DNA from: Candidatus Gastranaerophilales bacterium
GTDB taxonomy: Bacteria > Cyanobacteriota > Vampirovibrionia > Gastranaerophilales > Gastranaerophilaceae
Assembly (NCBI GenBank): GCA_944325945.1
Contig: CALVBW010000025.1
Span: 1-64,000 of the forward strand
Direction: 5' to 3'
DNA length: 64,000 nt
Positions 33,110 to 41,210 of the stretch are shown piece by piece; position 1 is the first letter of the stretch, and each line of letters begins with the position of its first letter. Made by a program: the position numbers and the translations under genes. Under the pieces are notes generated by a model. It was not told where the DNA came from. It saw only the letters and a list, made by a program, of their open reading frames with translations, and ran no database searches.

Positions 33110-34669
33110 CTAATTTCCTTTCAAAATTTTATTTGATGTGAAATTCATCTGATTACTTAAAAACGCCATGTTTTCAGGCTTATACATGATATTTTGCTGG
33201 GAAGCAATTGTTCTTTTCATCGCACGTTTCTGCTCGCTTTTATTAGTCATATAAATATTTAAACGCGGAATACCAAAACCGAGTACAATACCTGAGAATG
33301 CATAACCCGCAAGCTGTGCAATATTCAAATAACGCAGACTCTTTCTTGCTGCCTTATCAGTTTTCGGCAAGAGTTTCAAAAGTTCTTTGAACGGTAAAGC
33401 CTTGCCGTCTTTTACGGTAGAAATTCCGGCTTTTTTCAAAGCAGCATAAAGAACTTCATCTCTTGTTTTGCCTACAAGATTTTTATCAAGAGCTTTTAAG
33501 GTGCCTTTAGCAACAAAGTTACCGAATACAAGCCAGCTCAAATAACCTAATGTATCTTTGACGGTTGCCTCACGTAATTCATCCTTATCACGTGCTACCA
33601 AGAATCTTGACATAATGGTTAAGCCGTAAACAAGTTTGAATTGATTTAATGTCGGAGTAATACCTTTGTACTGGATATTCGGCAAGAAGTTTTTAGGATT
33701 GAATTTTGTAATCAAACCGTAAACCATAGTACCGAATGCTGCCGCAACACCTGCTTTCAAAGCTTTGAAACCTGCTGAATTATCCTTTTCACGGCCCTCA
33801 ACGCCTACGAATCCGTCACTGCCTGTTTTCTTTTTAGTCAAATAAATATTAAACGGTTGAATACAACAGCCGATTGCAGATGCAATTCCAAGCCCAAGAA
33901 TTGAACGACGCAAACCAAAGTTTTTCATAGCTTTGACGAAATTTACATCCTCGAATTTTGCAGCTTTTTGGAAAGATTCTACGACTTTGTCTTTGAATAA
34001 AGCTTTTGACATAGAGGTAATATTTTCTACAATATCGCCAAGAGAAGTTTTTACTTCTTTTCCGCCTGATTTCAGGAGAACATTAGCTTCTTCACCCAGA
34101 TCAGACAAAACAATATTTTTCAACATTGCTTTGTTTTCTTTATTCGGTTTTTTAATTTCTTTAGCAAGAGTTTTAGCAAACTCTTCTTTTGCCGCATCAG
34201 ACAAGAAGCGTTTACCGTCTTTTGTAGAAATACCTGCTGCAACACGTCTTGAATAATCAACAAGATTATCTTTGCTGTCGGATTTCAGGACATCATATCT
34301 TAATCTACTCAAAATATCCACAGCATCAGAATCAGCATAAATATGTTGAGCTTTAATACCGTATTTATTATTCAAAGCCACAGCCATGAGCATACCGGCA
34401 AGTGGTCCGTATACAAGCCCGACAAAAGCGTGGTTTACAGTGCCGCTGCCTTCACGACGCAAAGTTTCCACACCTGCAAGAGGTCCGCGGGTAAAATCAG
34501 TCATGGTTCTCGGCGCAACCATACAAGAAAAGTCAACAGCCGTCGCACCCCATGCCTGGTTGGTGTCCAAAAATCTTAATAATTGTACGCCCGTATCTGC
34601 AAGTCCGGTAAAGTTGGGGTTGTTATTTCTTTGATTATTTTGTTGTTGAGTAATTTGTTGTACTTTCAT
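33110..34669 (-). CDS. 519-aa membrane paralog, copy A (F-x-G motif)
   Basis: This 519-residue protein has no recognised family. The N-terminus is glutamine/asparagine rich and ends in the motif N-P-N-F-T-G-L (about residues 18-24). A shared block follows: D-[FL]-S, PRT, AG-x-E, LRREGSG (about 45-80). Several hydrophobic stretches (near 85-105, 255-280, 310-330, 445-465) suggest a multi-pass membrane protein. Its neighbour at 34679-36238 has the same length and the same ordered motifs, so the two are duplicates. The last hydrophobic segment is followed by MTNKSEQKRAM, a basic tail. AGGAAT precedes the ATG. Function unknown. Confidence 0.78.
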   Translation of the reverse strand: MKVQQITQQQNNQRNNNPNFTGLADTGVQLLRFLDTNQAWGATAVDFSCMVAPRTMTDFTRGPLAGVETLRREGSGTVNHAFVGLVYGPLAGMLMAVALNNKYGIKAQHIYADSDAVDILSRLRYDVLKSDSKDNLVDYSRRVAAGISTKDGKRFLSDAAKEEFAKTLAKEIKKPNKENKAMLKNIVLSDLGEEANVLLKSGGKEVKTSLGDIVENITSMSKALFKDKVVESFQKAAKFEDVNFVKAMKNFGLRRSILGLGIASAIGCCIQPFNIYLTKKKTGSDGFVGVEGREKDNSAGFKALKAGVAAAFGTMVYGLITKFNPKNFLPNIQYKGITPTLNQFKLVYGLTIMSRFLVARDKDELREATVKDTLGYLSWLVFGNFVAKGTLKALDKNLVGKTRDEVLYAALKKAGISTVKDGKALPFKELLKLLPKTDKAARKSLRYLNIAQLAGYAFSGIVLGFGIPRLNIYMTNKSEQKRAMKRTIASQQNIMYKPENMAFLSNQMNFTSNKILKGN

Positions 34670-34678
34670 GATTTATTC

Positions 34679-36238
34679 CTATTGTAAACTAAAAAAAGAT
34701 TTAAAGGTAGGTGAGCTGTCTTTGATTTGATCTTTCAAAAAGCCGTTGGTCGAATTAACCGATTCCGCGAGCTTTTTCAGTTCAGCTTCACGCTTTTTGT
34801 TAGTTTGCGTTCGGGTATAAAGCGGGATAAATATACCTAATGCTAACAAAGAGAATGCAAGATTGCCTAACTGGCATACTGATCTTAAATTTTTGGCTGT
34901 TTTGCCAACCACTTCATCAGAGGATTTTAGACTTACGTCTTTAACCCAGTGCCAGAATTTTTTCATTGCATTCGCGTCTTTCGGGGTTTCTTTTAATCTG
35001 TTAAGTAATTTCACATCCGGTTTGACTTTTTCAATAAAAGTTGCTACACCTTTTGCTGCATAATCACCCAGGAAATAAAGACTTGAGAAAGTAGCAATAT
35101 CACGAATTGTTGCTTCTCTTAACTCATTTTTATCTTCAGATGCCATCATGCGGCTTGCAAAAGTAGCGGTGGATATAAATCTTGCCTGATCCATTGTCGG
35201 GAATATTTCTTTAAATTGAAGCATCTGCTTGCTCGGCAATTTAAAGCCCATAGACATAAACATAACGCCCAACATAGAGCCGACTGATATAAATTTCTGT
35301 TTTAATAATGCTCTTTTTTCTGCCGGTGAAAGTTCCTGCTGCTCTTTATTCTGGGCAAAATCTTTATAAATAGGTGCGCCTTTTACACCTGAATGACGCT
35401 GTGTAAGCCATCTGTTTAAGGGCTGCATTGAAATTGCAAGAGGCAATATAACTCCAAGACCTGCAAAACTCTTCCAATTAACAAGTTTAATAGACTTTTC
35501 AATAAACTTAGAAAATTCTTCTGCTGATTTAATTCCGTTTTTCTTTACTGCATTATGGACATTAACAAAATCTTCCATATAACCTTTAAGATTTTTAGAT
35601 AAAACCTTACCATCCAATTCCAGATGTTCTGTCATATGCGTTTTGTTAGCAATGTCGAGGTAACCTTTATTGAAAAGTTTCTTACCTTTTTTGAGAAGTG
35701 TAGATTTTGCAGCAGCCTTAATACCGGATGATAAGTCAAAATCCTTAAATGCTTTTTTCGTATTGCCGTCAATACCTGTCAAATCATTCATAAATGCATT
35801 CATAGCATTTTCAAGTTTTTCAGAACCTTTACCTTTAGCATTTTGAAGATATTTCTGAACAATTTTCAAAGATTCTTCATTTGCCCAGACATTAGACATA
35901 CCTTTAAGACCCTTGAACATACCGGTCTTTTGCAAAAGCCCTGCCATACCCATTACAATAAAGCTCGGCAACAAACAGTTCACAATCAGCCCGGATGATT
36001 CACGGCGGAAAGCCTCCATACCGGCATATGCATTTGATTCTTTAGTTTCAATAATTGTTCGAGGAATAATGGCAGTTGACAAATCCAGCACTGAAACATT
36101 CAGCATCGGCACTTCTTCACAAAGCTGAATACCGCGCAAAAAAGCATCACCAAGCCCTTTGAATGAAGGCTGCTGATTTTTTGCATCCCAATACGGGGTA
36201 TTTTTTCTATTGTCTACACTACTAATCTTACTAATCAT
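34679..36238 (-). CDS. 519-aa membrane paralog, copy B (F-x-G motif)
   Basis: This 519-residue protein is paralogous to copy A and nine bases upstream of it. The motif Q-P-S-F-K-G-L is at about residues 23-29. The shared block reads VLDLSTAIIPRT (about 48-59) and AFRRESSG (about 74-81), with hydrophobic segments near 85-105, 250-270, 315-335 and 470-490. DKNELREATIRD near 375 matches DKDELREATVKD in copy A. The C-terminus is basic (TQTNKKREAELKKLAE). No catalytic motif is visible. The ATG has no good ribosome site; TATAAT lies 26 bases upstream without a clear -35. Function unknown. Confidence 0.78.
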   Translation of the reverse strand: MISKISSVDNRKNTPYWDAKNQQPSFKGLGDAFLRGIQLCEEVPMLNVSVLDLSTAIIPRTIIETKESNAYAGMEAFRRESSGLIVNCLLPSFIVMGMAGLLQKTGMFKGLKGMSNVWANEESLKIVQKYLQNAKGKGSEKLENAMNAFMNDLTGIDGNTKKAFKDFDLSSGIKAAAKSTLLKKGKKLFNKGYLDIANKTHMTEHLELDGKVLSKNLKGYMEDFVNVHNAVKKNGIKSAEEFSKFIEKSIKLVNWKSFAGLGVILPLAISMQPLNRWLTQRHSGVKGAPIYKDFAQNKEQQELSPAEKRALLKQKFISVGSMLGVMFMSMGFKLPSKQMLQFKEIFPTMDQARFISTATFASRMMASEDKNELREATIRDIATFSSLYFLGDYAAKGVATFIEKVKPDVKLLNRLKETPKDANAMKKFWHWVKDVSLKSSDEVVGKTAKNLRSVCQLGNLAFSLLALGIFIPLYTRTQTNKKREAELKKLAESVNSTNGFLKDQIKDSSPTFKSFFSLQ

Positions 36239-38713: not shown

Positions 38714-39778
38714 ATGGATAATGAAAAAGTAATCGGAATACCCAGAGCAATGTCATTTTATAACAATTACCCTTTTTATTACGGATTTTTCACTGATTTG
38801 GGTATCAAAATAGTTTTATCGGATGTGACCACAAAACAAACCATGTCAAGCGGTTCAGCACTTGTTGTAACTGAAACATGCCTTCCGATTAAAATATATA
38901 TAGGACACATATTGAATTTGATTGATAAAGGTATTGATAAAATTTTCGTACCGTCAATCCAATCAATTGCGCCGAAAATTTATAACTGTTCAAAAATCAG
39001 AGGTCTGCCGGACTTGGTCAGAAATGTGGTAAAACGCGATTTTACAATGGTTGAGGCAACTCTTGACAAATCAGAAAAAGGACACGGACTTTATGAATTT
39101 CTGGCAGAAATGGCAAAATCCTTCGGGATTACTGACGAAAAAATTATTAAAAAAGCCTCAAAAGCCGGATGGCGCTGCTATAATAACTTTCACATCATGT
39201 CAAAATCAGGTATGAGCTATAAAAAAGCATTAAATTATGCACTTCAAGGAAAAGTTTTCATTGAAAACCAGACAAAAGAGTATCCTATATCAATTGCACT
39301 TGTTTCACACGGTTACAACATTTATGATGACAGAGCCTGTATGAAAATATTTGATAAACTTGAGGCAATGGATGTAAAAGTTTACACATCACTTCAATTA
39401 TCGAACGAGCAATTGGATGACGGTATTGCATCACTCGGAAACGAGCAGTACTGGGCAAATGAATATGATATGACAGGTAGCGCAGGACATTACCTGAAAG
39501 ACAATAAAATCGACGGTATAATAACGCTTACCGCATTCGGCTGCGGACCTGATTCTTTAATGGTTGAAAGGATTACAAGAAAGGCTAAAAGATTCAATAA
39601 ACCTTTATTAAACCTTACAATTGACGAACATACAGGTGAAGCCGGCTTTATAACACGTCTGGAAGCATTTGTTGATATGTTATTCCGTAAAAAACGTGCA
39701 CATATAATTAATAAAATTGAACTTTCAGACGAAAAATCGGAATATATTCCTAACACAAACTTTATTGAAACAAAATAA
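38714..39778 (+). CDS. DUF2229 / COG3580 protein (acyl-CoA dehydratase activase-related)
   Basis: This 354-residue protein opens VIGIPRAMSFYNNYPFYY, with TETCLPIKIYIGHILNL following (about 53-69). This is the pattern of the DUF2229 domain found in large activase-like proteins related to 2-hydroxyacyl-CoA dehydratase activators. It keeps conserved cysteines (C55, and C-G-P in FGCGPDSLMVERI near 276). Those proteins are thought to handle iron-sulfur clusters and ATP-driven electron transfer. Here the domain stands alone, without the ATPase activase part. Function unknown. A terminator follows 25 bases after the stop. Confidence 0.8.
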   Translation: MDNEKVIGIPRAMSFYNNYPFYYGFFTDLGIKIVLSDVTTKQTMSSGSALVVTETCLPIKIYIGHILNLIDKGIDKIFVPSIQSIAPKIYNCSKIRGLPDLVRNVVKRDFTMVEATLDKSEKGHGLYEFLAEMAKSFGITDEKIIKKASKAGWRCYNNFHIMSKSGMSYKKALNYALQGKVFIENQTKEYPISIALVSHGYNIYDDRACMKIFDKLEAMDVKVYTSLQLSNEQLDDGIASLGNEQYWANEYDMTGSAGHYLKDNKIDGIITLTAFGCGPDSLMVERITRKAKRFNKPLLNLTIDEHTGEAGFITRLEAFVDMLFRKKRAHIINKIELSDEKSEYIPNTNFIETK

Positions 39779-40104: not shown

Positions 40105-40133
40105 TTGACAAAAAGCCAAAAATCATATTTAAT
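40105..40133 (+). promoter_or_regulatory. Promoter of the phase-variable pilin gene
   Basis: A consensus -35 TTGACA (40105-40110), a 17-base spacer and TTTAAT (40128-40133) are followed by AAGGAG and an ATG at 40156. These signals sit upstream of the poly-C tract, not next to the pilin reading frame. Confidence 0.6.
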
Positions 40134-40155
40134 AAAAGAAAAAAGGAGAATTGAT

Positions 40156-40212
40156 ATGTTGAAAAAGGTTGTACAAAAAGCGGTTCAGATAGTCGCCCCC
40201 CCCCGAAATTAG
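40156..40212 (+). CDS. Truncated leader ORF that stops after the poly-C tract
   Basis: The ATG at 40156 has an excellent ribosome site (AAAAGGAG) and promoter. As read here it encodes only MLKKVVQKAVQIVAPPRN, ending at TAG 40210-40212, just after nine C (40196-40204). If one C were gained or two lost, the frame would continue without a stop into the pilin ORF to 41210, giving a 351-residue product. The short peptide is therefore best read as the off state of a longer gene, or as the result of a base-count error in the tract. Confidence 0.65.
   Translation: MLKKVVQKAVQIVAPPRN
40196..40204 (+). repeat. Homopolymeric C tract (9 C)
   Basis: Nine consecutive C lie within a coding start, in a low-GC genome where such a run is rare. 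Changing the tract by one base switches the downstream reading frame. Slipped-strand mispairing at such tracts is a known cause of phase variation of surface structures; sequencing or assembly error is the alternative. Confidence 0.85.
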
Positions 40213-40248
40213 CTCAGGACTTAAATTTTAAGGATTTTAACTTTACAG

Positions 40249-40316
40249 GTCATCCTGAAATGTTAGCCGAAGGATCTCAAAAAATTAATGAGATGCTGAA
40301 ACAAGTTCAGCATGAC
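40249..40316 (+). repeat. Inverted-repeat element inside the pilin leader region
   Basis: GTCATCCTGAA (40249-40259) is matched by its near-perfect inverse TTCAGCATGAC (40306-40316). An inner stem TGCTGAA/TTCAGCA lies at 40294-40312. The 18-base core AAACAAGTTCAG[CG]ATGAC recurs at 59707-59724. It is translated as part of the leader here (MLKQVQHDK). It looks like a dispersed small palindromic repeat. Confidence 0.6.
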
Positions 40317-41210
40317 AAAAATTTTGGTTCGCTTTGTAAAGTTCTGAATGACAGTAATACCTTCTCTCGCCCCTTGGAAAGAGGGATAAAGGGAGAGGGG
40401 CAAGGCTGTAACAAAACCGTGAGCGAAGCTCACAGAAAATTCTTAGTGCCTTACTGCCTTAGTAACTTAGTATCTTCTAAAAAACCCGCATTCACACTCG
40501 CTGAAGTCTTGATAACCCTCGGCATTATCGGCATAGTGGCTGCTATGACAATCCCGACGTTGATTTCAAATTACAAAGAAAAAGAACTTGTTACAAAAGC
40601 CAAAAAAGCGTTGTCGCAGATTAACAATGCTGTTGATATGGCACGTGCAGAAAATAGTTACGGGGATAATTCAATTTTGTTTAATTCCAATAGTTCAACA
40701 GACGAAGTTATGAAAGCTTTTGCTAAATATTTTAAAGTTCAGGAAATATGCGTAGCAAGCGACAGTGGCTGCGGTGGATATTATTCAATCAAAGCAGCAA
40801 AACCATTCTCAGGTGATGGAGAGACATATAGCTCTGCAGCAACAACTTCATGGAGACCACGATTTTTAACTATGGATGGGGTTTTAATATGTGTTCAAAA
40901 ACTTATTGATGGCTGCGAACAGATCACGACTAATACAAAATTTGATGAAAACGGAATGCCTGAAAAAGATGAACAAGGTAATACTGTAACGTATGACCAA
41001 TTAGTACGAGCCTGTGCAAGCATACTTGTCGATACTAACGGCAAAAGTGAACCTAATCAGCTGGGCAGAGATGCATTTACACTGGTTATTGACAGGGACA
41101 ATATACGTTCGGACAAAACACAATGGGGCGGTGATATGCATGGTGTAGTCAGAACCGGAAAGTTATATGATACAGTTGACTATACTATTGGCGGTGCCGT
41201 TGAAGATTAA
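40260..41210 (+). CDS. Type IV pilin-like protein (prepilin N-terminal motif)
   Basis: The frame shows a prepilin motif KKPA|FTLAEVLITL at 40479-40520: F+1 and E+5 are present, followed by the hydrophobic helix LGIIGIVAAMTIPTLI. The mature part is about 240 residues, with paired cysteines (CVASDSGCGG, CVQKLIDGCEQ, CASI). It would be cut by prepilin peptidase and assembled into a pilus or pseudopilus. The start is uncertain. The first ATG in frame is 40260, without a ribosome site. A GTG at 40446 would give a normal 15-residue leader. The real promoter and ribosome site serve the ATG at 40156, one frame off because of the C tract. No other pilus gene is nearby. Confidence 0.75.
   Translation: MLAEGSQKINEMLKQVQHDKNFGSLCKVLNDSNTFSRPLERGIKGEGQGCNKTVSEAHRKFLVPYCLSNLVSSKKPAFTLAEVLITLGIIGIVAAMTIPTLISNYKEKELVTKAKKALSQINNAVDMARAENSYGDNSILFNSNSSTDEVMKAFAKYFKVQEICVASDSGCGGYYSIKAAKPFSGDGETYSSAATTSWRPRFLTMDGVLICVQKLIDGCEQITTNTKFDENGMPEKDEQGNTVTYDQLVRACASILVDTNGKSEPNQLGRDAFTLVIDRDNIRSDKTQWGGDMHGVVRTGKLYDTVDYTIGGAVED

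Follow-up and report, generated by a model that had tools for sequence, protein, structure and literature searches.

A type IV pilin-like gene in a Gastranaerophilales bacterium is probably one of at least 52 loci switched by slippage of G or C tracts

The best-known slippage switches are those of pathogens, Neisseria and Campylobacter among them, and of a few pilus loci in gut commensals. Members of the Gastranaerophilales are uncultured gut bacteria and non-photosynthetic relatives of the cyanobacteria. In Neisseria, translational phase variation has been described for pilC, which carries a poly-G tract, and for the opa family, which carries CTTCT repeats (PMC5320596). For the sortase-dependent pili of Bifidobacterium breve, mixtures of G tract lengths and pilus expression were both demonstrated, and the same paper warns that assembled homopolymer lengths can differ from those in the population (PMC9187656). 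The poly-G phasome of Campylobacter comprises many loci per small genome, spread over many gene classes, with a median of 20 tracts per genome in C. jejuni and with lengths 9 and 10 commonest, 9 first (PMC6321876).

The window analysed here is a stretch of 64,000 nucleotides from a Candidatus Gastranaerophilales bacterium. Its locus at 40105-41210 on the plus strand is predicted, with a probability of roughly 87%, to encode a type IV pilin-like protein whose translation is phase-variable through slipped-strand changes in the length of a C tract; the genome has at least 52 loci of this design, this one included. As in Neisseria pilC and opa, the repeat lies in the 5' coding region and one of three frames gives the full product, and as in opa the genes are paralogues, each with a repeat of its own. 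Unlike in Neisseria, the pilin subunits themselves appear to be switched, there are more than 50 copies per genome, the repeats are mononucleotide G or C, the tract is followed by a mosaic leader, and switching is inferred from sequence. The split of a pilin precursor into two ORFs by a G tract, with the two joined at one length, is shared with B. breve, as is life as a gut commensal; however, that system concerns two studied loci of LPXTG sortase-dependent pili, whereas here dozens of loci for type IV-like prepilins are known from assemblies. Many poly-G/C loci in a small genome, with tract lengths within the range of proven poly-G switches, recall Campylobacter (PMC6321876), but nearly all tracts here fall in one protein class.

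The promoter consists of TTGACA (40105-40110) and TTTAAT (40128-40133) separated by a 17-nt spacer, and the pair is kept at the syntenic locus in four sister species (G009, G012, G002 and G001); it was missing from the promoter scan because the filter of that scan requires A at position 2 of the -10 box. The Shine-Dalgarno sequence AAAAGGAG (40141-40148) precedes ATG 40156, which opens a head ORF of 18 codons plus stop (40156-40212; peptide MLKKVVQKAVQIVAPPRN, stop at 40210-40212), the presumed off-state product. Nine C (40196-40204), beginning 40 nt downstream of the ATG, form the proposed slippage switch, for which lengths of 7, 10 and 13 are in frame. The leader from the tract to F+1 (40205-40490) is a mosaic of short repeats with no stop in the pilin frame and 9 and 13 stops in the other two, and the palindromic repeat GAGATGCTGAAACAAGTTCAGCATGAC (40290-40316), whose core recurs in other leaders of this genome, is an in-frame insertion in it. 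The predicted mature pilin of 239 residues from F+1, with its stop, occupies 40491-41210, as delimited by the prepilin motif and a structure model. All these features lie on the plus strand. From the tract to 41210 the pilin frame has no stop, and ten C would make a frame of 351 codons. An earlier note, made from the letters of this DNA, had given the promoter, the Shine-Dalgarno sequence, ATG 40156, the C9 tract and the 18-codon ORF with coordinates accurate to the base; its intact prepilin in another frame, reaching 351 codons with one added C, was confirmed by the motif and the open frame. It had also described the pilin frame as having no comparable start signals, which agrees with the in-frame GTG at 40446-40448, its candidate alternative start, having no Shine-Dalgarno sequence. 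Within the window alone a run of eight or more C is mildly unusual, as many matches being found in 7 of 100 shuffles. Elsewhere in the window, on the minus strand at 33110-36238, two adjoining ORFs of 519 aa each look alike by eye and are possibly a tandem pair.

The hallmarks of the type IV pilin superfamily are present in the window pilin, namely a prepilin cleavage motif with F+1 at 40491 and E+5 (SSKKPA|FTLAE; SSKKPA|FTLAEVLITLGIIG) and a hydrophobic N-terminal helix. The protein matches Pfam N_methyl and NCBIfam TIGR02532 above their cut-offs and scores below the GspG equivalog cut-off, and the pilin profile matches solved pilins across the N-terminal helix. In the model of the mature pilin (mean pLDDT 89), an N-terminal helix at residues 3-54 is followed by a beta domain, for whose globular part a fold search of the PDB gave no significant match. 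A short leader, as expected of type IV pilins, was not found: in the in-frame form about 112 residues precede F+1, compared with 4-13 in most tract-free paralogues, and the label "type IV pilin-like" is used for this reason. Since the genome encodes a prepilin peptidase and T2SSE-type ATPases, the pilins could be processed and assembled.

The genome containing the window is a 1.63 Mb draft of 32 contigs, in which 83 pilin matches were obtained with the window pilin in its 351-codon, ten-C frame as query. The tract architecture was scanned at the fetched pilin loci, and the resulting count of 52 is a lower bound. At least 52 loci share the same order of Shine-Dalgarno sequence, ATG, 7-13 codons, a tract of G8-11 or C8-9, leader and prepilin motif, with the tract 21-40 nt from the ATG, a leader of 22-587 nt, and AGGAG or GGAGG within 20 nt of the ATG in 51 of the 52. 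Three families of heads recur, MxNKEFKNV-GGG (G tract), MLKKVVQKAVQIVA-PPP (C tract, the type of the window) and MGANTHHDYFSL-GGG (G tract). Genome-wide, 142 overlapping C8/G8 windows were counted against about 8 expected when scaled from the shuffles of the window, which is far beyond chance, and nearly all lie inside the heads of pilin genes: 134 are explained by tract loci, contig-end heads and decayed loci, 6 were not located, and the fetched G8 tracts L067 and L087 lack a head of this kind. Most tract-free pilins of this genome begin at an ATG 4-13 codons upstream of F+1, and many of them have a good Shine-Dalgarno sequence, so the tract genes form a distinct class. Taken together, these loci probably give the bacterium a very large repertoire of surface fibres, each switchable on its own.

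Five further heads of the same kind reach contig ends (L088 and L248-L251), the contig ending 115-327 nt beyond a G9 head; shared leaders probably break the assembly there, and more switchable pilins may be hidden in assembly gaps. Three loci look decayed, one through loss of the start codon (L022) and two through stops in the leader (L039 and L063). At two loci in two species (L031 in the genome of the window and L132 in G002), the tract reads GGGGGGGGA, nine bases of which the last one is changed; both are off and the pilin is intact.

Across the 52 loci, no stop was found between tract and F+1 in 4,567 codons of the pilin frame, compared with 416 and 476 in the other frames; the zero is partly by construction, since the count was limited to loci with the prepilin motif in a frame that is open from the tract onwards. 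Two observations are independent of this rule: the other frames are full of stops, and almost all tracts followed by a pilin pass, L039 and L063 being the failures seen. The leaders thus appear to be translated in the pilin frame. Leaders in this genome, for example those of the window and of L018, L023, L024 and L038, are mosaics of short repeats, some palindromic, inserted such that the pilin frame is kept open, and these repeats resemble in-frame palindromic elements of other bacteria. Three loci (L161, L083 and L026) carry an extra FTLAE in the leader upstream of the real one with a repeat in between, which suggests duplication of the prepilin motif by repeat insertion. The shortest tract loci suggest an original leader of near 25 residues, lengthened later by in-frame repeat insertions. 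Leaders of more than 100 residues are unusual for prepilins, and this counts against the main reading.

Three features of translational phase variation by simple-sequence repeats were found at these loci: a repeat of mutable length lies in the 5' coding region behind a proper start, one length class in three gives the full protein while the others stop early, and on and off lengths are both present among related genomes. Under the proposed mechanism, transcription would run from the conserved promoter and ribosomes would begin at ATG 40156, while replication slippage would alter the tract by one base. With nine C, translation would end after 18 codons (off), and at the other loci out-of-frame translation would usually end a few codons past the tract; with a length congruent to 10 modulo 3, translation would continue through the repeat-filled leader into the prepilin (on), from which prepilin peptidase would cleave the leader ahead of F+1. 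Each cell would then have many pilin genes that can be switched independently, most of them in the off position. Four parts of this picture are ones that we infer: that slippage causes the length changes, that switching is reversible within a population, that surface filaments form, and that so long a leader is cleaved.

Of the 52 loci in the genome of the window, 4 have head and pilin in frame, 36 fall short by one base and the other 12 show the third frame relation. The in-frame share is far below one third (p about 1e-5, a value for loci that are related, so that the trials are not fully independent). Selection against making many pilins at once, a relative stability of length 9, or consensus assembly of mixed populations are each possible reasons for so few in-frame loci.

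To compare tract length and frame in relatives, the syntenic site was located through the neighbouring gene at 38714-39778 of the window. Behind the same promoter and head, C9 out of frame was found in G009, G002 and G001, and C7 in frame in G012, where one unbroken protein runs from the ATG through FTLAE. C9 is therefore kept at this locus in four species including that of the window, which is more constant than free slippage predicts. In G002, of the same genus as the window, heads with G9 are off and five with G10 are on; in G024, of another genus, nearly identical heads are on with G12 and off with G11 and G13; elsewhere in the family, tract lengths of 9-14 cover all three frame relations. 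Related pilin bodies also differ in state, namely L050 (G9, off) and L125 (G10, on), L222 (C9, off) and L234 (C6, on), and L224 (C10, on) and L225 (C8, off). Heads with tracts reduced to 7 bases or fewer read in frame (L159, L221, L234, L016 and L238); the first three were picked regardless of frame, while L016 and L238 were noticed as being in frame and weigh less. Pilin bodies show dN/dS of about 0.04-0.3, indicating purifying selection although most sampled copies are off, and the bodies are therefore used at least some of the time. A search of viral contigs for strain variants of the locus found no copy, and no Rfam family scored above the gathering score when an RNA element was sought in the leader. 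At the syntenic site of G012 (L159/L252), promoter, head and C tract are kept, and the pilin body differs from that at 40105-41210 of the window, as if bodies had been swapped behind a fixed switch.

The slipped-strand reading of the earlier note is supported by the dependence of frame on length and by the in-frame and out-of-frame alleles at the syntenic locus, among paralogues and in relatives. The count of C in relatives, which that note had set beforehand as a test, gave C9, C9, C9 and C7 and no fixed C10, so its route to refutation through an assembly error failed, as did the other, a pilin start at GTG 40446, where there is no ribosome-binding site. Its design of the switch holds up; what its single switched gene missed was the scale, this being one of at least 52 such loci.

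Improbable, yet the strongest of the competing explanations, is that programmed ribosomal frameshifting or RNA-polymerase slippage makes pilin from G9 or C9, so that "off" would mean a low level of "on". Long G runs can be slippery, 36 of the 52 loci of this genome share one offset, one base short, and C9 is kept at the syntenic locus in several species, all of which would fit. However, the offset varies, with 0, 1 and 2 all occurring in the genome and its relatives, and it follows tract length behind similar heads, while C7 and C6 alleles read in frame without any shift. Obligatory frameshifting is rejected on this non-constant offset between frames; a minor leak is possible.

The tract would be irrelevant if ribosomes reached the pilin by starting inside the leader, for instance at GTG 40446, or by reinitiating past the stop of the head ORF. 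The in-frame GTG does lie 15 codons before F+1, a position that recurs at other loci, but this start lacks a Shine-Dalgarno sequence, whereas most tract-free pilins have an ATG 4-13 codons ahead of F+1, and a good Shine-Dalgarno sequence precedes many of these. An internal start would also not require stop-free leaders, yet at all 52 loci no stop interrupts the pilin frame between tract and F+1; on these two grounds, the missing Shine-Dalgarno sequence and the open leaders, an internal start was rejected as very improbable. Just as little weight is given to an assembly error with a true count of ten C, or to a decayed gene or pseudogene. The assembly is indeed a 32-contig draft with several contigs ending just beyond a tract, and the missing start codon of L022 and the leader stops of L039 and L063 point to some decay, but the identical C9 at the same site in three other species led to rejection of an assembly error, and the 52 loci with the pattern and open leaders, together with the purifying selection on pilin bodies, speak against this reading as a whole.

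With slippage of the tract as the preferred reading, the switch principle is known, as in Neisseria and Bifidobacterium, and the scale, the protein class and the clade are new. In a literature search that covered sources other than subscription papers and preprints, no earlier description of such phase variation in the Gastranaerophilales clade was found, and the Melainabacteria literature mentions basic type IV pilus genes only. If real, this may be one of the largest single-family collections of contingency loci so far known and would matter for strain-resolved metagenomics, and slippage-switched pilins would account for the splitting of these genes in annotation and for the assembly breaks at them. 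Pilins appear to take up much of the 1.5-2.2 Mb genomes of the family, and in the genome of the window about two thirds of the pilins would be switchable. Tentatively, and with somewhat less than even odds, a combinatorial pilin code can be proposed in which each genome has 50 or more pilin genes that slip independently and are strongly biased towards off, so that any one cell makes few of the possible fibres, and in which bodies are also exchanged behind fixed promoter-tract heads via the shared repeat-filled leaders; if true, the choice of fibres and their composition could both change.

The distribution of the tracts follows the family. C8/G8 windows number from 12 to about 600 in 34 of the 35 other sampled family genomes and from 0 to 22 in the order's other families, apart from G051, which has 44. 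Of the 38 family genomes sampled, 33 have the head-plus-tract pattern, often in tens of copies; among 79 other genomes of the class it was found as a single match in 5. Eight tract-rich genomes gave 50-122 pilin matches each, compared with 0-25 in tract-free or outgroup genomes, a rough comparison given the shorter query used for the latter. Another Candidatus Gastranaerophilales MAG, reached through a distant pilin hit, has the same layout with G10 (L115). A protein search for named relatives gave three hits, all distant, and the other proteins of the window found no counterpart at those loci, so the hits by themselves point to the Gastranaerophilales only tentatively. The 44 C8 windows of G051, which belongs to family f6 of the same order, all lie on one strand, unlike in other non-family genomes.
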